A stretch of DNA of 64,000 nucleotides from Spelaeicoccus albus (GTDB lineage Bacteria; Actinomycetota; Actinomycetes; Actinomycetales; Brevibacteriaceae): positions 1,798,001 through 1,862,000 of the forward strand of contig NZ_JACBZP010000001.1 of assembly GCF_013409065.1 (NCBI RefSeq), given 5' to 3'. Each line of letters starts with the position of its first letter. The stretch's first letter is position 1. The position numbers and the translations under genes are program-made. The notes under the pieces were generated by a model. It was not told the origin of the DNA, did not search any database, and saw only the letters and a program-made list of their open reading frames with translations. Positions 23,631-34,137 of this stretch are shown here, piece by piece.

Positions 23631-25346
23631 TTATGAGCGCATACGAGCGGCCCAGGAATTGTCCATGGCGAGCTCTTCGGCGTCGAGTTCGCGCTGGATT
23701 TTGAGCATGACCTCTTCGTCGAGTCTTCCGGCGTCCCGCTCGGCGACCAGCACGCTGCGCCGCACCGCCAGCATTTCCCGGCGCAGCAGCCCCATCAGCC
23801 GGGACCGGTTCTTCAACTCGACTGCGTGCGGATCGTCGTCACGGTCCGTCTCATCGGCGACGAGCTCCATCAACCGGTTTTGCGGGTTGAGAGTCCTTGT
23901 AACGCGCTCGATCGCGGCGTCCGTGAGTTTTTCGCCGTACTGCGCGGCCCACTCGGGCTTGTCTTGCTCGAGTTTCGCCATCGCGGCCTCGCTCGTGAGC
24001 CGGTACAAGCGGGTTTCGGCCTGCTGATCCTCGGTCCGCTGTTGCGGATTGCGCACCCGCAACCTGGTGATCAGGGCCGGCAATGTCAGTCCTTGCAACA
24101 ACAGAGTTCCCACCGTCACCGTGAAGGCGATCAAGAACACCAGGTCGCGTGCCGGGAACGGCTCGCCGGCGTCGGTGACGGCCGGCACGGAGGCCGCTGC
24201 CGCAAGCGTGACCACGCCGCGCATGCCTGTCCACGACATCACCATGAGATCACGTCCGGTCATGTCGAGCTCGGGGTCCGGCTTGTCCGCCAGCGGACCC
24301 CAGCGCGGAGGCTTCCGCCGTTTGAACCGGCGCGGCAGGAAGCGACCGCGGATCCGCAGCAGCGTCAGATGCCAGGCATGGGAGGAGAAAACATACAGCG
24401 GCCGGACGACGAGCACCACGGCGAACACGATGAACGCCACTGCGATACTTGCGAGCAAGCCGCGCGGACCGGAAGCGACATCGCTGATGACCGTCTTGAG
24501 CTGGATTCCGATCAACCCGAAGACGAATCCCTCGAGCAAAATGTCCAGGGACGACCAGACCGGCTGCTCCTGCAGGCGCGACGCGTACCCGGTCTTCGGC
24601 GCGTTGTAGCCGAGCAGCAGACCGGCCGCCACGACGGCCAACACGCCGGAGCCGCCGATCTCTTCGGCAAGCACGTAGCCGACGAACGGCAGCAGCAGCC
24701 CGACGACGACGTTGACCGTCGGATCGTCCAAATGCATGCGGAGCCAGTGCGCCGCGATGCCCAGCGCCACGCCGACGACGACCCCGACCACCACCGCATC
24801 GGCGAAGACGAAAAGCCCTTGGCCAAGTGTCATCGATGCGCCGGTCGCCGCCGCCAAGAACACCTTGAACAAGGTCAGCGACGTCGCATCGTTGATCAGG
24901 CTCTCCCCGGCAAGCACCGTCATGAGCTTGCGCGGCAAGCCGAGTTTCCGGCCGATGGCCATTGCCGACACGGCGTCCGGCGGTGCGACGACGGCGCCGA
25001 TGAGGAAGGCGGCCGGCAAGGTCAAGTCGGGTACCAGGGCGTACGCGACGAATCCGGCGGCCAAGGCCGTGGCGAGCACGAGCGTGACGCCGAGCCGGCG
25101 GATGGGCCGCAGGCTTTGATGGAAATCCTGATACGAGACTCCGAGCGCCGAGGAGAACAACAACGGCGGCAACACCAGAGTCAAGATCGTGTTCGAGTCG
25201 ATGGTGAATTGCGGGATGCCGGGAATATACGACGCGGCTAGGGCGGCGGCCGTGACCAAGAGCGGAGCGGGCCAGCCCCGCCACCGGGCGAAGGCGGTGA
25301 GCGCCAACGAGCCCGCCAACAATGCCAGGAGGTGCTCGATATGCAT
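23631..25346 (-). CDS. Na+/H+ antiporter, CPA1 family
   Basis: The 571-residue protein has 12-13 predicted helices and the CPA1 motifs: LLFSSALGVSYQDF, GAVVAPPDAVSAMAIGRKLG (ion-binding Asp), AGESLINDATSLTLFKVF (the ND pair of the transport site) and MSWTGMRGVVTLAAAASVP. A charged cytoplasmic tail of about 140 residues follows. It would exchange Na+ or K+ for protons in pH and salt homeostasis. The ATG has GGGAG at 5 bases. Confidence 0.94.
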   Translation of the reverse strand: MHIEHLLALLAGSLALTAFARWRGWPAPLLVTAAALAASYIPGIPQFTIDSNTILTLVLPPLLFSSALGVSYQDFHQSLRPIRRLGVTLVLATALAAGFVAYALVPDLTLPAAFLIGAVVAPPDAVSAMAIGRKLGLPRKLMTVLAGESLINDATSLTLFKVFLAAATGASMTLGQGLFVFADAVVVGVVVGVALGIAAHWLRMHLDDPTVNVVVGLLLPFVGYVLAEEIGGSGVLAVVAAGLLLGYNAPKTGYASRLQEQPVWSSLDILLEGFVFGLIGIQLKTVISDVASGPRGLLASIAVAFIVFAVVLVVRPLYVFSSHAWHLTLLRIRGRFLPRRFKRRKPPRWGPLADKPDPELDMTGRDLMVMSWTGMRGVVTLAAAASVPAVTDAGEPFPARDLVFLIAFTVTVGTLLLQGLTLPALITRLRVRNPQQRTEDQQAETRLYRLTSEAAMAKLEQDKPEWAAQYGEKLTDAAIERVTRTLNPQNRLMELVADETDRDDDPHAVELKNRSRLMGLLRREMLAVRRSVLVAERDAGRLDEEVMLKIQRELDAEELAMDNSWAARMRS

Positions 25347-25424
25347 AGGCGCTCCCGGCGGGGTCGGTCGTGAGGTTCCATTTTATGCCCGCCGCTCCCG
25401 GGCCGCCGGGACGGGCGCGACGGG

Positions 25425-25430
25425 TAGGAT
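25425..25430 (+). promoter_or_regulatory. -10 box TAGGAT before the phosphatase gene
   Basis: TAGGAT is followed by 8 bases and the ATG at 25439, consistent with a leaderless or nearly leaderless transcript. Confidence 0.45.
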
Positions 25431-25438
25431 TCGTCGGT

Positions 25439-25939
25439 ATGAGCTATCGCCCCGACGCATATCGCATCCTGACCGTGTGCACCGGCAACATTTGTCGATC
25501 GCCGATGGCCGAAGTGCTGCTGCGCGATCGCTTCGCCGACCTGGGCATCGACGTCGTCATCGATTCGGCCGGCGTCAGTGCGGAGGAGAGCGGCAACCCG
25601 ATGGACGAGCGGGCCCAGCGGGCCTTGCGCCGCCGCGGCTACGCGCCGGGCGCGCATACCGCCCGGCGGGTCAGTGCCGAGTGGTTGCCGGAGCGGGATC
25701 TCGTGCTGGTGATGACCGCCGCGCATGAACGGGCTGTGGCTCGGCTGGCCGAGGCGTACCGGCCGGACGTCGCGGCACGCGTCCATCGGTATCGTGAGTT
25801 CGACGACGCGGCGACCGGCGATCTGGATATTGCGGATCCGTGGTACGGGGACGACGGCGATTACGAAACAGTGATGGATCAGCTCGAAACCGGTCTCCCC
25901 GGAATCATCGACTACGTGCAGGCCTCGCGCCGACGCTGA
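25439..25939 (+). CDS. Low-molecular-weight protein-tyrosine phosphatase
   Basis: The 166-residue protein has the P-loop VCTGNICRSPMAEVLL (nucleophile C14, R20) and the general-acid loop IADPWYGDDGDYE. These define the low-molecular-weight PTP family that dephosphorylates tyrosine or arginine residues. The ATG at 25439 gives the usual family length; the open frame upstream carries no homology. The neighbouring genes give no hint of its partner kinase. Confidence 0.94.
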   Translation: MSYRPDAYRILTVCTGNICRSPMAEVLLRDRFADLGIDVVIDSAGVSAEESGNPMDERAQRALRRRGYAPGAHTARRVSAEWLPERDLVLVMTAAHERAVARLAEAYRPDVAARVHRYREFDDAATGDLDIADPWYGDDGDYETVMDQLETGLPGIIDYVQASRRR

Positions 25940-25960
25940 GACGTTGTCGGCGCTGCCGGT

Positions 25961-25966
25961 TAGGGT
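25961..25966 (+). promoter_or_regulatory. -10 box TAGGGT, probable leaderless start
   Basis: TAGGGT is followed by 6 bases and the ATG at 25973; the in-frame GTG at 25967 would directly abut the box, so the ATG is the likely start. Confidence 0.5.
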
Positions 25967-25972
25967 GTGAGC

Positions 25973-26371
25973 ATGGACGCCCGAGACCTGAAGGCCGCAT
26001 GTTTGTCGATGCCCGGAAGCTTTGAAGACTTCCCGTTCGGCCCGGAGTCGTCCGTCTTCAAAATTCGCGGCAGATCCGGCCGGGAAAAGATGTTTGCGCT
26101 GTCGGCCCTGAGCGCGCCTCGGCTCACCATCAGCCTCAAATGCGATCCGGTCGTCGCAGACCAGCTGCGCGGCGCCTATCCCGAGATCACCGGTGCCTAC
26201 CATATGAACAAGAAGCATTGGAACGGCGTGGACTGCACGGGGCAGCTGACCGACCGGATGATCGTGGAGATGATCGAAGACTCGTACGATCTCGTCGTGT
26301 CATCGCTACCTCGGGCCGACCGCGAAGCACTTGGCTGGCAACGGATCGTCGACGGCGGGGCAGCGGAATGA
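25973..26371 (+). CDS. MmcQ/YjbR-family protein
   Basis: The 132-residue protein shows the YjbR pattern: LSMPGSFEDFPFGPESSVFKI near the N-terminus, FALSALSAPRLTISLKCDP in the middle, and YHMNKKHWNGVDC followed by MIEDSYDLVVSSLP. The fold is a DNA-binding-like (CyaY-like) domain, but the role of the family is not settled. It converges on the CbiX-type gene. Confidence 0.9.
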   Translation: MDARDLKAACLSMPGSFEDFPFGPESSVFKIRGRSGREKMFALSALSAPRLTISLKCDPVVADQLRGAYPEITGAYHMNKKHWNGVDCTGQLTDRMIVEMIEDSYDLVVSSLPRADREALGWQRIVDGGAAE

Positions 26372-26390
26372 CTGCGCCCCCTGCGCCGGC

Positions 26391-27143
26391 TCAAGTCGAG
26401 CGTGCGGCATCGAACCTGTCGAGAGCGACCCGGGCGACCACGTCGGCGGGTGAGTCGACAATCGAGTCGCCCCGCACGTCGGCAGCGAGCAGCGGGGGAG
26501 TGACGACGTCGGCGCCGGTGCGCTCCAGCAGCGAGGCAAAGTAGCCGGGCGCCAGCAAATACGAGGCAACGGCGATGCGGCCGGGGGCGTTGCGCAGGTC
26601 GGCGACCGCGTCGCGCACGCCCGGCGTGCCGCCTGCCGCGTACGCAACCGTCGTCCGTCCGGAGCGGCCTTCGCCGAATCGCGTGCGCAACGCATCGTCG
26701 ACAAGCCGCGCCGCGGCATGCACGTCGGCGAGCGCCCGCGGATCCGAGCTGCCGGCGGCGGCCAGCACGACGTCGTCCGCGGCCCCCGCGTGCGCGCTCA
26801 CCAAGGCGCCGGTCACAAGGTCGGCAAGTCGTGGATCCGGGCCGAGCGCGGACGCCACTACGGTGTCCGGCCTGGAATCGGCTGCGCCGGCGATATCGAC
26901 GTGCACGTGATACCCGGCCGACAACAACAACGGCACGATCACGGCCGGCCGACCCGGGCCGATGCTCGCCACGACTTCTGCGACCCCCGGGACTTGCACA
27001 TCGACGAATGCTTCGCGCACATCGAGCCCCGGTCTTTGGCGGCGTACCGCGTCCAACAGCCGCCGCACCGACGCACGGCCCGCCGGATCGTCGGTGCCGT
27101 GTGAGCAGCCGATGAATACCGGCGAATTCGTTGGGGCGGTCAT
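26391..27143 (-). CDS. Sirohydrochlorin chelatase, CbiX/SirB-like
   Basis: The 250-residue protein has two CbiX-type halves; the first contains FIGCSHGTDDPAG and VPLLLSAGYHVHVDI, where the two His residues would bind the metal, and the second contains VASYLLAPGYFASLLE. Members insert Fe2+ or Co2+ into sirohydrochlorin. It is divergent from the leader peptide and sulfite reductase operon, whose enzyme needs siroheme, so iron chelation for siroheme is the natural inference. The minus-strand TACTAT box lies 6 bases before the ATG. Confidence 0.9.
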   Translation of the reverse strand: MTAPTNSPVFIGCSHGTDDPAGRASVRRLLDAVRRQRPGLDVREAFVDVQVPGVAEVVASIGPGRPAVIVPLLLSAGYHVHVDIAGAADSRPDTVVASALGPDPRLADLVTGALVSAHAGAADDVVLAAAGSSDPRALADVHAAARLVDDALRTRFGEGRSGRTTVAYAAGGTPGVRDAVADLRNAPGRIAVASYLLAPGYFASLLERTGADVVTPPLLAADVRGDSIVDSPADVVARVALDRFDAARST

Positions 27144-27149
27144 TCGGCG

Positions 27150-27155
27150 ATAGTA
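27150..27155 (-). promoter_or_regulatory. -10 box TACTAT, probable leaderless start
   Basis: On the minus strand TACTAT is followed by 6 bases and the ATG at 27143 of the chelatase gene. Confidence 0.5.
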
Positions 27156-27262
27156 CGGGTTCCGGCCGGTCCGGGCAGTGCGCGGGCGACAGAAAACCGG
27201 GAATGTGACGGGAAATGACGTGACGAAAGCCGGAATCCGGGCCCGTCGGCAACCATGAAGCC

Positions 27263-27370
27263 ATGACTTCCGGCACCTGGAGCCTGTGGACTCGACTGCA
27301 CGTCGACCTCATGCGCGTCGCCAGCAATCTGATGTGCCGTCCGTCGCTGCGCTCACTTCGCTTGCGCTAA
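27263..27370 (+). CDS. Leader peptide of the sulfur assimilation operon
   Basis: An ATG at 27263 opens a 35-codon frame ending in TAA at 27368-27370. It contains RLHVDLMRVASNLMCRP, matching the actinobacterial 'putative leader peptide' consensus (H-V-D-L-x-R-V-x-S-x-L-C-R) found before cysteine and sulfur genes. The single Cys sits near the end and an Arg/Leu-rich tail follows. It is 183 bases upstream of nirA with a hairpin in between (27478-27508). Cysteine-dependent translation of such leaders is known from mycobacteria to control downstream sulfur genes. Internal ATGs (for example 27311) could also serve as start. Confidence 0.75.
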   Translation: MTSGTWSLWTRLHVDLMRVASNLMCRPSLRSLRLR

Positions 27371-27477
27371 CCGCCCCGCGGTAGTCGCCGCGCACGCTGC
27401 CACTCCGGCCCTGTCGCACCGATCTCTTTTATTTCGCGATCCGGCCGGCTCACGCCGTCCGCCGCCAATTTTCTCTC

Positions 27478-27508
27478 GGGCGAGCCCCGCCCGGCCAATG
27501 GCTCGCCC
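27478..27508 (+). promoter_or_regulatory. Attenuator-like hairpin between leader peptide and nirA
   Basis: A perfect 9-bp stem GGGCGAGCC/GGCTCGCCC (27478-27486, 27500-27508) encloses a 13-base loop, 108 bases after the leader stop and 45 bases before nirA. There is no U-tract. It could act as a terminator or as a structure responding to leader translation. Confidence 0.5.
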
Positions 27509-27553
27509 GCTTGTCCCGATCCCGGCGCATTCTCTTGCGCCAGAAAGGTCGTC

Positions 27554-29257
27554 ATGCCTACTTCCACCGCAGCACCGCCCGCCTCATCGACAGCCCGCAC
27601 GCGCAAGCCGAACGGTCAGTGGGTGATCGACGGCAGGGAGCCGCTCAACGCCACCGAAATCTTCAAAGCGGACGACGACGGGCTGAACGTGCGCGAACGC
27701 ATTGAAACCGTTTATGCGAAAAACGGCTTCGACAGTATCGCCGGCGACGATTTGCATGGCCGTTTCCGCTGGTGGGGCCTTTACACGCAACGTCGCCCCG
27801 GCATCGATGGCGGCAAGACCGCGACGCTTGAGCCGCACGAACTCGAAGACCGGTACTTCATGATGCGCATTCGCATCGACGGCGGCGTGCTGAACGCCCG
27901 ACAGCTACGCGCCATCGGCGGCATCTCGACCGATTTTGCCCGCGACACGGCCGATCTCACCGACCGACAGAACATTCAACTGCACTGGGTGCGCATCGAA
28001 GACGTGCCGGAGATCTGGCGCCGGCTGGAATCCGTCGGGCTTCGGACCACCGAGGCGTGCGGAGACGTGCCCCGCGTCATCCTGGGAAGCCCCGTCGCTG
28101 GGATCGCAGCCGACGAGATCATCGATCCGACTCCTGCCTTGAAGGAGATCTCGGACAATTACATCGGCGATCCGCGGTTTTCCAATCTGCCCCGCAAATA
28201 CAAGACGGCCCTGACCGGACATCCCAGTCAGGACGTTGTCCATGAAATCAACGACGTGGCCTTTGTCGGCGTGCGTCATCCCGCCCTCGGCCCCGGCTAC
28301 GATCTGTGGGTCGGCGGGGGCTTGTCCACGTCGGCGCACTTGGCACAACGTCTTGGCACCTTCGTCCCTGAAGACCGGGTTGCGGAGGTCTGGATCGGCG
28401 TGACGTCGATCTTCCGGGACTACGGGTACCGCAGGCTGCGCAACAAGGCGCGGTTGAAATACCTTGTCGCCGACTGGGGGCCGGAGAAATTCCGCGACGT
28501 GCTCGAGGGCGAATATCTGGGCGCGCCGCTGCCCGACGGCCCCGCCGCGGAGAAGCCGGACACGCCCGGTGACCATATCGGCGTCCACCGGCAAAAGGAC
28601 GGCAAGTTCTACATCGGTCTCGCCCCTACCGTCGGCCGTTCGTCGGGGACCACTCTCACGGCGTTGGCGGACCTGCTGGACAAGTACGGCTCCGGCCGGC
28701 TGCGCACGACTCCGCACCAGAAGATTCTGCTCCTCGACATCGACGAAAGCGACGTCGACGACGTGATCGCCGGTGCCGCCGAGCTCGGCCTGCAAGCACG
28801 GCCCAGCCCGTTTCGGCGAACGACAATGGCGTGCACCGGGCTGGAATTCTGCAAACTCGCCATCGTCGACACCAAGGACACGGCCGCCGACGTCATCGCC
28901 GAACTCGAGCAGCGGCTGGACGGCGTCCCGCTGCCCGCGCCGATCGCCCTGCACATCAACGGATGCCCGAACTCGTGCGCCCGCATCCAAACGGCCGACA
29001 TCGGGTTGAAGGGACAGTTGCTGCCGGACGGCGACGGCGGCCACCAACCCGGATTTCAGGTGCACGTGGGAGGCGGACTCGCCTCAGCCAACCGGGACGA
29101 AGCCGGCTTGGGCCGCACGGTGCGCGGCCTGAAAATCCCCGCCGCCGAGCTCGCCGACTACGTCGAGCGCCTCGTGCGCACGTTCCTGGCCGAACGTGAG
29201 GGCAGCGAAACGTTCGCCCAGTGGGCGCACCGCGCCGACGAGGAATCGTTGCGATGA
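27554..29257 (+). CDS. nirA: Ferredoxin-dependent sulfite reductase (NirA type)
   Basis: The 567-residue protein carries the siroheme/4Fe-4S cysteines in MACTGLEFCKLA (C427, C433) and NGCPNSCAR (C471, C475), with the repeated half-domain motifs FMMRIRIDGGVLNARQLRAI and TDRQNIQLHWVRIEDVP. It reduces sulfite to sulfide with electrons from ferredoxin in assimilation; the mycobacterial NirA is the closest named type. WWGLYTQRR and EACGDVPR match the regions of the Tyr-Cys crosslink of that enzyme. It has GAAAGG upstream of the ATG and overlaps cysH by 4 bases. Confidence 0.95.
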   Translation: MPTSTAAPPASSTARTRKPNGQWVIDGREPLNATEIFKADDDGLNVRERIETVYAKNGFDSIAGDDLHGRFRWWGLYTQRRPGIDGGKTATLEPHELEDRYFMMRIRIDGGVLNARQLRAIGGISTDFARDTADLTDRQNIQLHWVRIEDVPEIWRRLESVGLRTTEACGDVPRVILGSPVAGIAADEIIDPTPALKEISDNYIGDPRFSNLPRKYKTALTGHPSQDVVHEINDVAFVGVRHPALGPGYDLWVGGGLSTSAHLAQRLGTFVPEDRVAEVWIGVTSIFRDYGYRRLRNKARLKYLVADWGPEKFRDVLEGEYLGAPLPDGPAAEKPDTPGDHIGVHRQKDGKFYIGLAPTVGRSSGTTLTALADLLDKYGSGRLRTTPHQKILLLDIDESDVDDVIAGAAELGLQARPSPFRRTTMACTGLEFCKLAIVDTKDTAADVIAELEQRLDGVPLPAPIALHINGCPNSCARIQTADIGLKGQLLPDGDGGHQPGFQVHVGGGLASANRDEAGLGRTVRGLKIPAAELADYVERLVRTFLAEREGSETFAQWAHRADEESLR

Positions 29258-29949
29258 CCGCCGATACCGCGCTGCTCCGCGACATCGCCGGCGACGGCGC
29301 CGGTGCCGGCGACATGAGCGCCGTCGACGCCATTCGCTGGGTTGCCGAGCGCTTCGACACGCGTGACGTGGCAGTCGCCTGCTCGATGGCCAACGGCGTG
29401 CTGCCGCACATCGTGTCGGCGCAGCTGCCCGGCGTCGACGTCCTGTTCCTCGACACCGGCTACCATTTCGCTGAAACCCGGTGGACCCGTGACGACGTGG
29501 CAAGGCGCCTCGACGTGCGCGTCGTCGACCTGCAACCGGAGCACAGCGTTGCCGAGCAGGACGCGGAATATGGCCCGCGGCTCTACGAGCGCAACCCATC
29601 GCTCTGCTGCGCGCTGCGGAAGGTCGCCCCGCTGAACCGCGCGCTCGCGGGATACCGCCTCTGGTTGACCGGGGTTCGCCGCGAGGAGTCCCCGACGAGG
29701 GCAAACGCGCCATTGATCTCGTTCGATGACGCGCACGGACTGATCAAGGTCAATCCGCTTGCCGCATGGACCCTCGACGATCTCACCGGCTACGCGGCCC
29801 GCCACGATGTGCCGGTCAACCCGCTGGTGGCCGAAGGTTACCTCTCGATTGGCTGCGCGCCCTGCACACTGCCGGTCGCCGCCGGCGCCGACCCCCGGTC
29901 CGGCCGTTGGGCAGGGCGGACCAAGACCGAATGCGGAATTCACCAATGA
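29254..29949 (+). CDS. cysH: Adenylyl-sulfate (APS/PAPS) reductase
   Basis: The 231-residue protein has the PAPS-reductase fold motifs VAVACSMANGVLPHIV (P-loop-like) and DVLFLDTGYHFAETRW. It also has the two Cys pairs NPSLCCALRK and GCAPCT that hold a 4Fe-4S cluster, and the C-terminal TECGIHQ with the catalytic Cys. The cluster Cys pairs indicate the APS-using type, which makes sulfite for NirA. The ATG at 29254 overlaps the nirA stop (ATGA). Confidence 0.94.
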   Translation: MTADTALLRDIAGDGAGAGDMSAVDAIRWVAERFDTRDVAVACSMANGVLPHIVSAQLPGVDVLFLDTGYHFAETRWTRDDVARRLDVRVVDLQPEHSVAEQDAEYGPRLYERNPSLCCALRKVAPLNRALAGYRLWLTGVRREESPTRANAPLISFDDAHGLIKVNPLAAWTLDDLTGYAARHDVPVNPLVAEGYLSIGCAPCTLPVAAGADPRSGRWAGRTKTECGIHQ

Positions 29950-29966
29950 CTCGAAGGACATCGACA

Positions 29967-31187
29967 ATGCCACACACTTACCCGCTTGCCTTGCACCTGG
30001 CCGGCAAGTCGGTCGTCGCAGTAGGCGGCGGCGCGGCGAGCGTTCGGCGCATCCGGTCGCTTTCCGGCGCCGGCGCGGCCGTCACGGTGATCGCGCCGTC
30101 CATCGACGACTCGCTCCGACGGCCGGCCCGAGACGGCGAGATCGCATGGTTGCCTCGGCCTTACCGGCACGGCGATCTGGACGGCGCGTGGCTGGTGCAC
30201 ACGGCAACGGGCAATCCGGACGTCGATGCGGCAGTTGCGGCCGAGGCCGACGCAGCTCGTACCTGGTGCATCAATGCATCGGACGCCGTGACGTCGGCGG
30301 CGTGGACGCCGGCGGTCGCGCAGGCCGGCGACGTGAGCGTGGCGGTCAACGCCGGAGGCGATCCGCGCCGAGCTGCAACCCTGCGCGACGGCATCCAAGC
30401 GGCCCTCGATTCGGGAGACTTGCCAATGCGCCGATTCCGGCGGCGAGGCCCCGGAACCGTGGCGCTGGTCGGCGGAGGCCCGGGGGATCCGGGGCTGATC
30501 ACGGCGCGCGGACGCCGGCTACTTGCCGAGGCCGATGTCGTCGTTGCCGACCGGCTCGGGCCCCGGACGCTACTGGACGGCCTGGCCGCCGAGGTGATCG
30601 ACGTGGGCAAACGGCCCGGCCGCCATCCGGTCCCGCAAGCCGAGATCAACGACATTCTCGTCAGCCGCGCCGAAGCGGGCCGGCGCGTCGTCCGGCTCAA
30701 GGGCGGCGACCCGTACGTGCTGGGACGGGGTGGCGAAGAGCAGGCCCATTGCCGCAGCCACGGAATCGACGTCGAAGTCGTGCCGGGCGTCACCAGCGCC
30801 GTGTCGGTGCCGGCTGCCGCCGGGATCCCCGTCACCCACCGCGGTGTGGCGCGCGGGTTCACCGTCGTCACCGGCCACGACGAACTGGTCACTGCGCCGA
30901 CCGGCGGCGACCACACGCTCGTGCTGCTGATGGGGGTGGCGACGCTGAGCCGGTCGGCTCGGAGCCTCCTCGACGCCGGGCGGCCGCCGGCGACTCCGGT
31001 CGCAGTCGTCGAGGACGGATTCGGACCCGACCAACGCGTCACAATCGGCACGCTGACCGATATCGCCGGCAAGGCGGATCGAATCGGCGTCCGGCCGCCG
31101 GCCGTCATAGTCGTCGGCGACGTCGTCCGGCTCAGCCCGTTCGCCGACCAACTCGAAACCCACCACGAGACGGAGGCCCTGCTATGA
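29967..31187 (+). CDS. cysG: Siroheme synthase-like fusion (dehydrogenase + uroporphyrinogen-III methyltransferase)
   Basis: The 406-residue protein joins an N-terminal precorrin-2 dehydrogenase-like Rossmann domain (HLAGKSVVAVGGGAASVRRI, about residues 1-150) to a C-terminal uroporphyrinogen-III C-methyltransferase (VALVGGGPGDPGLITARG, RLKGGDPYVLGRGGEE, VVPGVTSAVSVPAAAGIPVTH). It makes sirohydrochlorin for the siroheme of NirA. The N-terminal part is shorter than in E. coli CysG, so the separate CbiX-type chelatase may provide iron insertion. AAGGA lies 8 bases before the ATG at 29967; an earlier ATG at 29946 overlaps the cysH stop. Confidence 0.92.
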   Translation: MPHTYPLALHLAGKSVVAVGGGAASVRRIRSLSGAGAAVTVIAPSIDDSLRRPARDGEIAWLPRPYRHGDLDGAWLVHTATGNPDVDAAVAAEADAARTWCINASDAVTSAAWTPAVAQAGDVSVAVNAGGDPRRAATLRDGIQAALDSGDLPMRRFRRRGPGTVALVGGGPGDPGLITARGRRLLAEADVVVADRLGPRTLLDGLAAEVIDVGKRPGRHPVPQAEINDILVSRAEAGRRVVRLKGGDPYVLGRGGEEQAHCRSHGIDVEVVPGVTSAVSVPAAAGIPVTHRGVARGFTVVTGHDELVTAPTGGDHTLVLLMGVATLSRSARSLLDAGRPPATPVAVVEDGFGPDQRVTIGTLTDIAGKADRIGVRPPAVIVVGDVVRLSPFADQLETHHETEALL

Positions 31188-32614
31188 CCCGCACGGAACC
31201 GAACCGCGTATTGCGCATCGGCATCATCGGAGCCGGCCCGGCAGGCATTTACGCAGCCGATCAACTCACGAAAGCCGAAGTGCTCACGCACACCGACACC
31301 GCAGTGTCCATCGACATCCTCGACCGCCTGCCGACGCCGTTCGGGCTGATCCGGTACGGCGTGGCGCCCGACCATCCGCGCATCAAGGGGATCGTGAGCG
31401 CATTGCACCGGGTGATGGGGAAGGACGAGATCCGGTTCCTGGGCAATATCGACTACGGCACCGACATCACGCTTGATCGGCTTCGGGAATTCTATGACGC
31501 GATAATCTTCGCGACCGGATGCATCGACGATGCCGGGCTCGACATTCCCGGCATCGACTTGGCCGGATCGCACGGCGCCGCCGAGTTCGTGAATTGGTAC
31601 GACGGGCACCCGGACTACCCGCGCGAGTGGCCGCTGGATGCGCGCGAAGTGGCCGTGATCGGCAACGGCAACGTGGCGCTGGACGTGGCCCGCATGCTTG
31701 CCAAACACGCCGACGATCTGCTCTCGACGGAGATTCCCGACCACGTGTATGCCGGGTTGAAATCATCGGCGGTCACCGACGTGCACGTGTTCGGCCGGCG
31801 CGGGCCGGCGCAGGTGAAATTCACGCCGCTGGAATTGCGCGAGCTCGGCAAGGTCCCGGACGTCGATATCGTGCTGTATCCCGAGGACATCGAGTTCGAC
31901 GACGAATCGATGCGGCAGATCCATTCGAACAATCAAACGAAGCAGGTCACCAAGACGCTGACCGACTGGACGTTGCGCGATCCGGGAACGGCCGAACGTC
32001 GACTGCACCTGCACTTTCTGCAATCGCCCGTCCGGGTGCTCGGCGACTCGCACGTCCGGGGATTGCGCACCGAACGGATGGAACTCGACGGCACCGCCCA
32101 CGTGCGAGGGACCGGAACGTTCACGGACTGGCCGGTGGGCGCCGTCTACCGGGCAGTCGGATATTTCGGCACGCCGGTCAAGGACGTGCCGTTCGACGAT
32201 GCGGCCGGAGTGATCGCGAACGAGGCCGGCCGGGTCGTGAGCGATGACGGCCCGGTCGCCGGCCTCTACGCGACAGGGTGGATCAAACGCGGACCGGTCG
32301 GTCTGATCGGGCACACCAAGGGCGATGCCCTCGAGACCGTCACGAACTTGCTTGCGGACGCCGGTGGTCTCACCGCGCCGGCCCGGCCGCACCCCGGCGA
32401 CGTCGACGAGTATCTGGCCGGCGCCGGCATCCCCTTTACGACGTGGCGGGGCTGGCTGACTCTCGACGAGCACGAGCGTGCGCTCGGACAGGCCTTCGAT
32501 ATGCCGCGGGAACGGATCAAGGTCGTCGGACGCGAAGAAATGGTTGCCGTCTCCCGCAGCCGATCATGGGGCCGAGCGGGCGACGCCGGCGAGAGGCGGC
32601 CGGGTCGGGGATAG
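31184..32614 (+). CDS. fprA: Ferredoxin/flavodoxin-NADP+ reductase, adrenodoxin-reductase type
   Basis: The 476-residue flavoprotein begins with the FAD motif IGIIGAGPAGIYAADQL, then RLPTPFGLIRYGVAPDHP, the NADP-binding AVIGNGNVALDVARML and VFGRRGPAQVKFTPLEL, and the C-terminal ATGWIKRGPVGLIGHTKGDA. This is the FprA/adrenodoxin reductase family. Its place at the end of the operon, overlapping cysG by ATGA, suggests it passes electrons from NADPH to the ferredoxin used by NirA; no ferredoxin gene is adjacent. Confidence 0.94.
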   Translation: MTRTEPNRVLRIGIIGAGPAGIYAADQLTKAEVLTHTDTAVSIDILDRLPTPFGLIRYGVAPDHPRIKGIVSALHRVMGKDEIRFLGNIDYGTDITLDRLREFYDAIIFATGCIDDAGLDIPGIDLAGSHGAAEFVNWYDGHPDYPREWPLDAREVAVIGNGNVALDVARMLAKHADDLLSTEIPDHVYAGLKSSAVTDVHVFGRRGPAQVKFTPLELRELGKVPDVDIVLYPEDIEFDDESMRQIHSNNQTKQVTKTLTDWTLRDPGTAERRLHLHFLQSPVRVLGDSHVRGLRTERMELDGTAHVRGTGTFTDWPVGAVYRAVGYFGTPVKDVPFDDAAGVIANEAGRVVSDDGPVAGLYATGWIKRGPVGLIGHTKGDALETVTNLLADAGGLTAPARPHPGDVDEYLAGAGIPFTTWRGWLTLDEHERALGQAFDMPRERIKVVGREEMVAVSRSRSWGRAGDAGERRPGRG

Positions 32615-32636
32615 CTGCTTCAAGAAGCGCCGCAGC

Positions 32637-33617
32637 TTAAAGAAGCGCCGCGCCGGCCCACGCCAGTGCGGCGGTGATCACCAGCGCAGCGGCCCCGGCC
32701 GTCAGCGCGCGCGGGCGCAGCCGGGTGAGTGAACTGAGCTTGACTGCCGCTCCCAAGGCGATGAGGGCGGCGGCGACGAATACGTCTGCCACGATGCCGA
32801 GCACGTCCGCGGCGCCGCGCGGCACCGGGCCGGCTGCGGCGACCGCGACCGCGACGGCGAACCCGACCACCGCAATGGCAGGCAGCCGTGCCGCAGCGTA
32901 TTTGCCCGTCACTGCCGCGAGGACTGCCGCGAAGAACAGCCGCACCAGCACGGCGACGGACACCGCCGACGCCGTTGCCGGCTGTCCACCCGGACCAAGG
33001 GCGGCTCCTGCCGCGATTGCCTGCCCGGCTCCCGGCACGCCGGTGCCCGCCCAAAAGCCGGCGCTCACGGCGTCCAGGCCCAAGGCACCCGTCAGCGCGG
33101 GCAGCAGCAGGACCGCAATGAGCGCACCGGCCGTGGCAAGCACGGAGATATCGCCGGACCGGGTGCGTGACGGCCGTGTTTTTTTGCCGCCGGTGTCGAA
33201 TGATCCGGAGGCGAGGGCGAACCCGCCGGCCAGCGCGAGCGGCTCCCCGGCCGGCAAGCGAAACGCCAGGCCGATCAGGAAGACCGCCGCAAAGGACACG
33301 GCCGCCACTGCGACGGCTGCCGGCACGGGCGGCGCGGCAGCTTCGGTGATCTGCACGGTGAGGCCGGACAGGATCAGTCCGGCCGGCAACAGGTACCGCG
33401 CGGCTGCGTCCAGGCCGGCCCTCAGCGACCGATTGGCGTACTGACGGAACCCCGTGACATTGCCCAGCACGAGTCCGAGCACGATTGCCACGCTGAGCGG
33501 CGGCAGCCCCGGTGCGCGCGAATGAACTGCGTAAGCCACGGCGGCGCCGGCGCCGGCGGCGACAAGTCCCGGTGCAAGCCTGCGGAAAACGCCGTGCACC
33601 GGACTGCCTTGACTCAC
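32637..33617 (-). CDS. YeiH/UPF0324-like putative sulfate exporter
   Basis: The 326-residue, roughly 10-helix protein is very Ala/Val-rich. It matches the YeiH family at SVAIVLGLVLGNVTGF, LPAGLILSGLTVQITEA, FWAGTGVPGAGQAIAAGA and the C-terminal helices. The usual central G-x-S-x-C-G-A segment of this family is replaced by FALASGSFDTGGKKTRPSR, an odd divergence. The GTG at 33617 gives the usual family length; the longer frame runs back into the DUF4188 gene. It follows that gene by 7 bases and converges on fprA, so a role in sulfur export is plausible but unproven. Confidence 0.75.
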   Translation of the reverse strand: MSQGSPVHGVFRRLAPGLVAAGAGAAVAYAVHSRAPGLPPLSVAIVLGLVLGNVTGFRQYANRSLRAGLDAAARYLLPAGLILSGLTVQITEAAAPPVPAAVAVAAVSFAAVFLIGLAFRLPAGEPLALAGGFALASGSFDTGGKKTRPSRTRSGDISVLATAGALIAVLLLPALTGALGLDAVSAGFWAGTGVPGAGQAIAAGAALGPGGQPATASAVSVAVLVRLFFAAVLAAVTGKYAAARLPAIAVVGFAVAVAVAAAGPVPRGAADVLGIVADVFVAAALIALGAAVKLSSLTRLRPRALTAGAAALVITAALAWAGAALL

Positions 33618-33624
33618 GCATCCA

Positions 33625-34137
33625 TCATGGCCCAGGCGCCGACTCCGCCGATCCGTCGGGGTGCGGCGCACTGTTTCGGACGGCGGCCAGCCGGGACCGG
33701 GCACGGTTTCCGCGGCTGATCGGCGTGCTGGAGGTGAACTTGGCCAAGCCGAGCGGTGGTGTTCCGTTGTAGACCGATTCGGCGCGGTCGACGCTGAACG
33801 TTTCATGCCAGATGCCGACGGCGTTCGGGGCCTTCGCGGCGCGCCGGTTGAATGCTCCCCACGCGGGCCGGTGTTCGGCGTCCGGATTGCTCGCGTAGGC
33901 GTACAGCTTGTCCAGGGAGTCCCAGTACTGGATGACGACGGGATTCAGCCCTTCGAGGAGATAGCGGTATCCGAGCAGGCCCGAGTCGCGTTCGCCGGCA
34001 AGTTCGCGCAACATGCGCGGCATTGCCGCGAAAGACGGCATCCAGAGGTCCGGTCGCCAGACCTTGTTGATTGTCATGCCGATCAGGAAGACGACGAGGT
34101 CGCCGTCATGGTGGTGAGTGCGGCGGTCGATGCGCAT
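33625..34137 (-). CDS. DUF4188 protein (monooxygenase-like fold)
   Basis: The 170-residue protein shows the DUF4188 pattern: DGDLVVFLIGMTINKVWRPD, LWMPSFAAMPRMLRELAGER, then DSGLLGYRYLLEGLNPVVIQ and IWHETFSVD with the conserved His. Members resemble small dimeric monooxygenases or aldoxime dehydratases; the reaction is unknown. GGAG lies about 8 bases before the ATG at 34137; an upstream ATG at 34173 is less likely because it would sit in the divergent control region. It leads into the YeiH-like gene and is divergent from a MerR regulator. Confidence 0.85.
   Translation of the reverse strand: MRIDRRTHHHDGDLVVFLIGMTINKVWRPDLWMPSFAAMPRMLRELAGERDSGLLGYRYLLEGLNPVVIQYWDSLDKLYAYASNPDAEHRPAWGAFNRRAAKAPNAVGIWHETFSVDRAESVYNGTPPLGLAKFTSSTPISRGNRARSRLAAVRNSAPHPDGSAESAPGP

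Follow-up and report, generated by a model that had tools for sequence, protein, structure and literature searches.

The window, i.e., the whole analysed stretch of 64,000 nucleotides from the one-contig, 4.03-Mb genome of Spelaeicoccus albus, carries a short open reading frame (ORF) followed on the same strand, 183 nt from its stop to the nirA start, by four sulfur genes (Table 1). Family matches confirm the operon nirA-cysH-cysG-fprA in the order given by the earlier note, the name fprA being a putative one taken from a reading of the sequence, with Pfam giving a pyridine-nucleotide oxidoreductase only. The operon is flanked by a divergent CbiX-type chelatase gene upstream and by a convergent YeiH-like gene downstream. 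A nirA 71% identical to that of the window is found in an assembly labelled Vibrio cholerae (L053, WNZI01000069.1), which is probably mislabelled or contaminated with actinobacterial DNA.

Table 1. Features of the leader region and of the operon, with positions in the window
Feature	Position	Strand	Basis or remark
-10-like hexamer AACCAT	27251..27256	+	12 nt before leader ATG
Leader ORF, 35 codons	27263..27370	+	ATG27263-TAA27370; product MTSGTWSLWTRLHVDLMRVASNLMCRPSLRSLRLR
Codons of conserved motif R-L-H-V-D-L-M-R	27293..27316	+	conserved across nirA-linked leaders
Only Cys codon, TGC	27335..27337	+	Asp+10; family rule TGT at Asp+9
Untranslated spacer, candidate Rho loading site	27371..27553	+	C 0.45, G 0.26 over the part ending 20 nt before nirA
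10-bp perfect hairpin, no U-tract	27477..27509 (arms 27477-27486 / 27500-27509, 13 nt between)	+	predicted paired probability 0.97
6-bp hairpin GGCGCA-TTCTCT-TGCGCC	27524..27541 (27524-27529 / 27536-27541)	+	abuts nirA SD; predicted by folding, one average being over a stretch one base off
nirA Shine-Dalgarno (SD) AGAAAGG	27542..27548	+	sequence
nirA, ferredoxin-type sulfite/nitrite reductase	27554..29257	+	family matches, below equivalog cut-offs
cysH, APS/PAPS reductase	29254..29949	+	family matches; ATGA overlap with nirA
cysG, siroheme synthase	29946..31187	+	family match; start inferred from ATGA overlap (ORF open from 29766)
Pyridine-nucleotide oxidoreductase, fprA-like	31184..32614	+	Pfam; ATGA overlap with cysG

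The 35-codon frame with the consensus described by the earlier note is real, with the motif as written there. It reaches 29.7 bits against the NCBIfam model NF042934 ('putative leader peptide'), above the cut-off of 27. When the 4.03-Mb genome was searched in all six frames and 150 of the 190 candidates from the first look were scored, five matches had E values of 10 or less, and this frame alone exceeded the cut-off (E 9.1e-6); at E 0.001 none of 14 control genomes matched. Short ORFs are common in this region, 104 of at least 25 aa overlapping positions 24000-34000, and the frame might have arisen by chance and be devoid of function; however, a score above a curated cut-off, its being the only such match in the genome, the absence of matches in the controls and the correct operon downstream leave a chance origin scarcely credible.

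Distribution of the leader family

Leaders of this kind are named only 'putative' in NCBIfam, yet they score above the cut-off of NF042934 in at least 229 of 394 genomes of the class, and in at least 42 of 396 genomes of the order, both lower bounds with at most 22 candidates scored per genome among those listed. The region upstream of nirA was read at 232 loci, i.e., 28 in relatives of the same order or family, 80 named loci and 124 newly fetched from the class sample, where 296 of 394 genomes have a nirA match and only part of these are among the loci read. A leader with the motif precedes nirA at 107 loci, namely 104 of the 124 from the class sample, three of the 28 relatives and none of the 80 named loci, of which three (L035, L037 and L066) have less than 200 nt before nirA, so that absence cannot be shown there. 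Named and genome-sample loci overlap partly (e.g., L002/L060, L005/L071 and L010/L105), and L155 and L278 are one place. By hand count, the nirA-linked leader loci come from 19 families, and the leader is absent from the Brevibacterium nirA loci read. As read from this distribution, the window keeps a leader that is not found in its nearer nirA-bearing relatives.

The gene that follows the leader was considered at 63 loci (60 chosen by family score, plus L301-L303) by a Pfam scan of the next ORF, some ORF picks being unreliable and some having no Pfam family. Most frequent were an SDF symporter (11 loci), DUF4395 (7), a family-5 binding protein, NIR_SIR and rhodanese (6 each) and sulfatase (5), then NAD_binding_9 (3), PALP, NlpA lipoprotein and PAPS reductase (2 each), and, as single cases among others, TauD, TauE, luciferase-like, FMN reductase and UvrD helicase. 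Many of these families can have a part in supplying sulfur or cysteine, which is not plain for DUF4395, NAD_binding_9 and UvrD.

A DNA search of 60 genomes of the family gave short matches, and among the nine loci read L301-L303 carry the leader motif and L307 has it inside a long frame. At L301 (positions 1497-1538), from another genus of the family, the motif LLVRRLHVDLARVASAN lies before an SDF-symporter-like ORF and is followed by a stop exactly at the Cys position, apparently a leader that has lost its sensor codon. In L302 and L303, two family genomes with no nirA found, the leaders end in RLHIDLMRVTTVIC and a stop, written TGT TGA. Five loci of Brevibacterium-group genomes (L139-L143) have a leader MLWRR(I/L)HIDLKRLTSSNC that ends in Cys directly before the stop; no match to nirA follows it within the locus.

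Conserved codon and peptide of the leader

Counted from the Asp of R-x-H-V-D, the Cys stands at +9 in 104 of the 107 nirA-linked leaders (in L271 at +5, +8 and +9) and at +10 in three, including that of the window. The regulatory Cys codon is UGU in 105 of the 107, with the window and L296 as exceptions, and in the nirA coding parts of those loci Cys is written UGC 80 times and UGU once (80/81 UGC). A second leader set has UGU at +9 in 58 of 60, with Cys codons elsewhere in its tails being UGC 64 and UGU 38 times, and before +5 UGC 19 times and UGU twice; in polycysteine leaders +8 is mostly UGC, and +10 and +11 are often UGU as well. GC3 is 0.04 at +9, against 0.96 and 0.91 in the flanking codons and 0.89 in early nirA, and is also lowered at -5 (0.49), -4 (0.51), +2 (0.66) and -3 (0.69).

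The loci were found by a motif that includes the Cys, so that its presence is partly by construction, which does not hold for the choice of codon. Kinship among the loci, 37 of which share an ALVSRRH-type leader and belong mostly to one genus, was reduced by a set of 71, where UGU is found in 69; by family, exceptions occur in two of 19. Base pairing as the reason for UGU is not supported, a UGC version pairing better in 46 of 69 loci and worse in 20 (L001 and L296 left out). UGU is read via wobble by one tRNA-Cys, and decoding by this single tRNA is a likely cause of the codon choice. No statement of the +9 UGU rule was found in the parts of the literature examined, and Canestrari 2020 could hold part of it; a literature search with the motif letters and the model name NF042934 returned no relevant paper.

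Of the peptide itself, leaders linked to nirA with Cys at +9 keep Arg at -4 (103/103), His at -2 (102/103) and Arg at +3 (94/103), a conservation that is partly by construction, positions being counted from the Asp and the loci having been collected with the motif. The codons of conserved residues vary, with five for Arg -4, four each for Arg -3, Val -1 and Leu -7, and both boxes used for Ser +6 (AGC 86, TCN 7), so that it is the identity of the peptide that is conserved. From its spacing, about 6-13 residues ahead of the Cys, the motif would lie in the upper exit tunnel. At 21 aligned loci, Streptomyces-like by a guess, synonymous sites are nearly fixed too, and a constraint at the RNA level may act there. 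The spacer in this alignment also keeps CAGCACCGCCG, GCGCA..GACGCGC and TGCGCAGGTCAGAGCCGC blocks. Met occupies +7 or +8, close ahead of the Cys, in 30 of the 71 leaders of the reduced set (L247, L189 and L277 among them), and the leader might also sense methionine supply.

The leader of the window shares with the NF042934 kind the motif, the size, the place before a sulfur operon and a score above the cut-off, but departs from the +9 UGU rule—a rule of the present analysis and not a published criterion—in having its Cys one residue later and written UGC. It differs also in its end: the Cys is three residues from the stop in 75 of the 107 leaders, and the tail after it measures 0-5 residues in 105, nine in one and 10 in the window. 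The Arg/Leu-rich tail, to which the earlier note had ascribed a possible part in pausing, is thus present but outside the family consensus, and is, on this comparison of sequences, peculiar to the window copy.

Predicted transcript start and composition of the spacer

Start positions were compared in a set from which L182 (without the motif anchor) had been dropped, L246 and L197 (without a nirA start) being set aside to leave 105 loci, which became 71 after removal of near-duplicates and 69 with a start in range. A hexamer xAxxxT begins at -13 or -12 in 60 of the 69, and at -14..-11 in 62, where shuffling gives 8.8 on average and never more than 16 in 300 trials; this looser pattern was chosen after seeing the sequences, strict TANNNT at -15..-10 being found in 2/71 with SD-like stretches in 7/71 under that start choice. 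The base at -1 is C in 63 of the 69 loci, and an SD-like stretch occurs in three. The window has its hexamer at -12 and C at -1 and is without SD. From this promoter spacing before the leader ATG, a leaderless mRNA starting at A27263 is predicted. A TTG starting at -37..-35 is present in 21 of the 69 loci and absent in the window, a point against the leaderless and Rho model.

Stretches with C over G are a known mark of Rho loading sites. Along the nirA-linked leader loci, C minus G in 20-nt bins runs from -0.05 to 0.10 upstream of and within the leader, steps up to 0.27 in the first 20 nt after the stop and stays at 0.10-0.17 on to 160 nt; the other leaders have 0.16-0.18 as far as 120 nt and 0.09 farther on. 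Within 60 nt of the stop the difference exceeds 0.1 in 61 of 71 nirA-linked and 45 of 54 other leaders, compared with 1/71 and 13/54 within the leaders themselves. The same value is exceeded in 10/42, 2/25 and 1/7 ordinary co-directional spacers, and at leaderless nirA loci in 7/122 at -140 to -20 and 16/122 at -75 to -20. Part of the C lean is not specific to the spacer, since the first 120 nt of nirA coding sequence lean to C too (0.40 vs 0.31) and exceed 0.1 in 24/71. In the window, the 78-nt stretch of the spacer richest in C over G begins at 27400 and is matched by 1.2% of 2000 random window pieces, these having been scanned at a coarser step. Rho is encoded in the genome, and past the leader stop the untranslated RNA has the C-rich, G-poor composition that belongs to a Rho-dependent leader attenuator; such composition is no proof of a rut site.

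Proposed mechanism, alternatives and known systems

The wide spread of the family before sulfur genes and the near-invariant Cys codon make cysteine-dependent control the natural reading of the leader, and to this extent the attenuation expected by the earlier note is supported by the sequences, except for the hairpin as its switch. We consider the ORF of the window probably a cysteine-linked leader and, with somewhat more reserve, lean towards the explanation as a whole, i.e., a cysteine-sensing leader ORF ahead of a spacer in which Rho would end transcription unless a stalled ribosome shields it; that Rho is the effector is a possibility to which we give slightly less than even confidence. 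These gradings overlap with one another and with those of the alternatives and are not shares of one total.

According to the proposed mechanism, transcription would begin at the leader ATG, as the position of the promoter suggests, and the ribosome would start at the 5' end of the mRNA. With R-x-H-V-D-L-x-R in the exit tunnel, it would pause on the Cys codon during a shortage of cysteinyl-tRNA, adjoining and shielding the C-rich, G-poor spacer, so that Rho would fail to load and nirA-cysH-cysG-fprA would be transcribed. When cysteine is ample, the ribosome would finish and depart and Rho, to which the composition points, would terminate in the spacer. Both translation and stalling at the Cys are predictions from sequence features. 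The short distance from Cys to stop in most members fits a ribosome that shields the RNA just past the stop. In the window, where the Cys lies 10 residues before the stop, a ribosome waiting there would cover less of the spacer, and with the sensor so shifted (Asp+10, UGC, ten residues to stop) the response may be weaker or altered.

The stem behind the leader, described by the earlier note as one of 9 bp, is present and is in fact a perfect 10-bp stem with a high predicted paired probability (Table 1), as classical hairpin attenuation with a ribosome-controlled terminator would have it. However, it is without a U-tract, the search for intrinsic-terminator-like sites in 27100-27700 found none, on which the hairpin was rejected as a terminator, and placing a ribosome on the Cys codon in silico leaves the stem unchanged. 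The locus further differs from a trp-type attenuator in that one Cys stands instead of a run of regulatory codons, and control by this hairpin is accordingly very improbable. No Rfam family was found at E 1 over 26000-34000, and the region 27371-27580 is predicted to fold mildly more stably than its shuffled versions (z -1.88; 8/200 shuffles as stable). Attenuation could also act on translation, with the ribosome-binding site (RBS) of nirA locked by leader RNA and opened by a ribosome at the Cys. The cysteine genes of M. smegmatis are so reported, with translational rather than Rho control, in Canestrari 2020 as cited in the available part of PMC13236596. In the window, the minimum free energy structure pairs the HVDL codons (27298-27309) with the SD and start of nirA (27546-27557), the best leader-RBS duplex has -22.0 against averages of -18.4 for a shuffled RBS, -20.4 for a recoded leader and -19.8 for a swapped RBS, and in a consensus fold for the 21 aligned loci, which are of one genus, the leader codons GRMS pair with the RBS. 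Yet the pairing of the window persists with a ribosome on the Cys, the paired site lying upstream of the footprint of the stalled ribosome, and the accessibility of the RBS goes from 0.35 to 0.31; over 71 loci its mean is 0.428 free, 0.424 with the ribosome at the Cys and 0.436 with a control mask, a gain above 0.05 being seen in 12 loci vs 13 with the control mask. Moreover, none of the 39 consensus pairs of the 21 loci has a compensatory change, and native pairing is slightly above controls, with mean z values over 71 loci of -0.29 (sem 0.12) and -0.33 (sem 0.13). In a comparison of native with swapped 12-nt pairing, bearing on RBS sequestration, t was -2.7 at best over 42 positions. We regard translational control as unlikely, bearing in mind that structure predictions for GC-rich RNA say little for or against.

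The copy of the window is atypical and may be a variant or decaying. Decay, with the motif inherited and the regulation lost, is suggested by its being one of the two UGU exceptions among 107, by the shifted Cys and long tail, by the stop in place of the Cys in L301 and by the lack of a leader at the Brevibacterium nirA loci read. Against it, Arg, His, Val, Asp, Leu, Arg and Ser of the motif are all kept, as are the position of the -10 element, the C at -1 and the C-rich spacer; a decayed leader appears improbable, to about the same degree as translational control.

Among known systems, the TnaC leader of E. coli has residues at fixed spacing from a stall site near its stop and a Rho loading region just after, and senses free tryptophan. 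The leaders described here resemble it in the residues at fixed spacing and in the downstream Rho-type region, the sensing of free tryptophan being proper to TnaC. Canestrari et al., as cited in PMC13236596 and PMC9094748, reportedly described polycysteine leaderless ORFs of mycobacteria in 2020. These ORFs (NF042933 Ms5788A and NF042936 Ms4527A) have a run of Cys where the window has one, and its leader reaches 13.4 bits against NF042936, below the cut-off of 45; the -10 hexamer and the missing SD of the window would be in keeping with a leaderless start such as theirs. A polycysteine leader in L146/L147 scores 47.3 with NF042933 (cut-off 45) and 41.8 with NF042934 (cut-off 27), and so belongs to the same wider family, the match pointing to a mycobacterial origin. 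In the available part of Seliverstov 2005 (PMC1262725), Cys leaders without terminators are predicted for Mycobacterium and P. acnes, with Rho as a weak prediction, and few intrinsic terminators are reported for mycobacteria; there, too, a short ORF precedes cys genes, with runs of Cys codons in contrast to the single codon and the quantified C-rich step found here. As far as the excerpts available go, ribosomes were seen on such an ORF in M. smegmatis (Shell 2015, PMC4633059), six such ORFs are given for M. tuberculosis (Smith 2022, PMC9094748), the S. lividans reannotation (PMC8079986) has eight leader peptides, none for cysteine, and nothing on cysteine leaders was found in PMC9386245 and PMC12121999. 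The uORFC-8-2 before cysS in Rhodobacterales is likewise an upstream ORF with Cys codons ahead of a cysteine gene, but it has two of them in tandem, mostly UGC, together with an intrinsic terminator (PMC8632094, in the part available).

The leader of the window is thus a further member of the known NF042934 kind, and the interesting part is the UGU rule together with the C-rich step. More tentatively still than the role of Rho, the leaders across the actinomycetes may be one class of switches for sulfur supply, gated by stalling and acting through Rho, where a single Cys codon would suffice as sensor owing to the nascent chain (R-x-H-V-D-L-x-R) and a UGU that is read slowly exactly nine residues later, the polycysteine leaders of mycobacteria being a derived branch and the window a shifted variant. 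A single UGU at a fixed position after a conserved peptide raises the question of whether sensing lies with the codon, with the nascent chain or with the two together and, if true, would suggest a general design of attenuation for high-GC bacteria.
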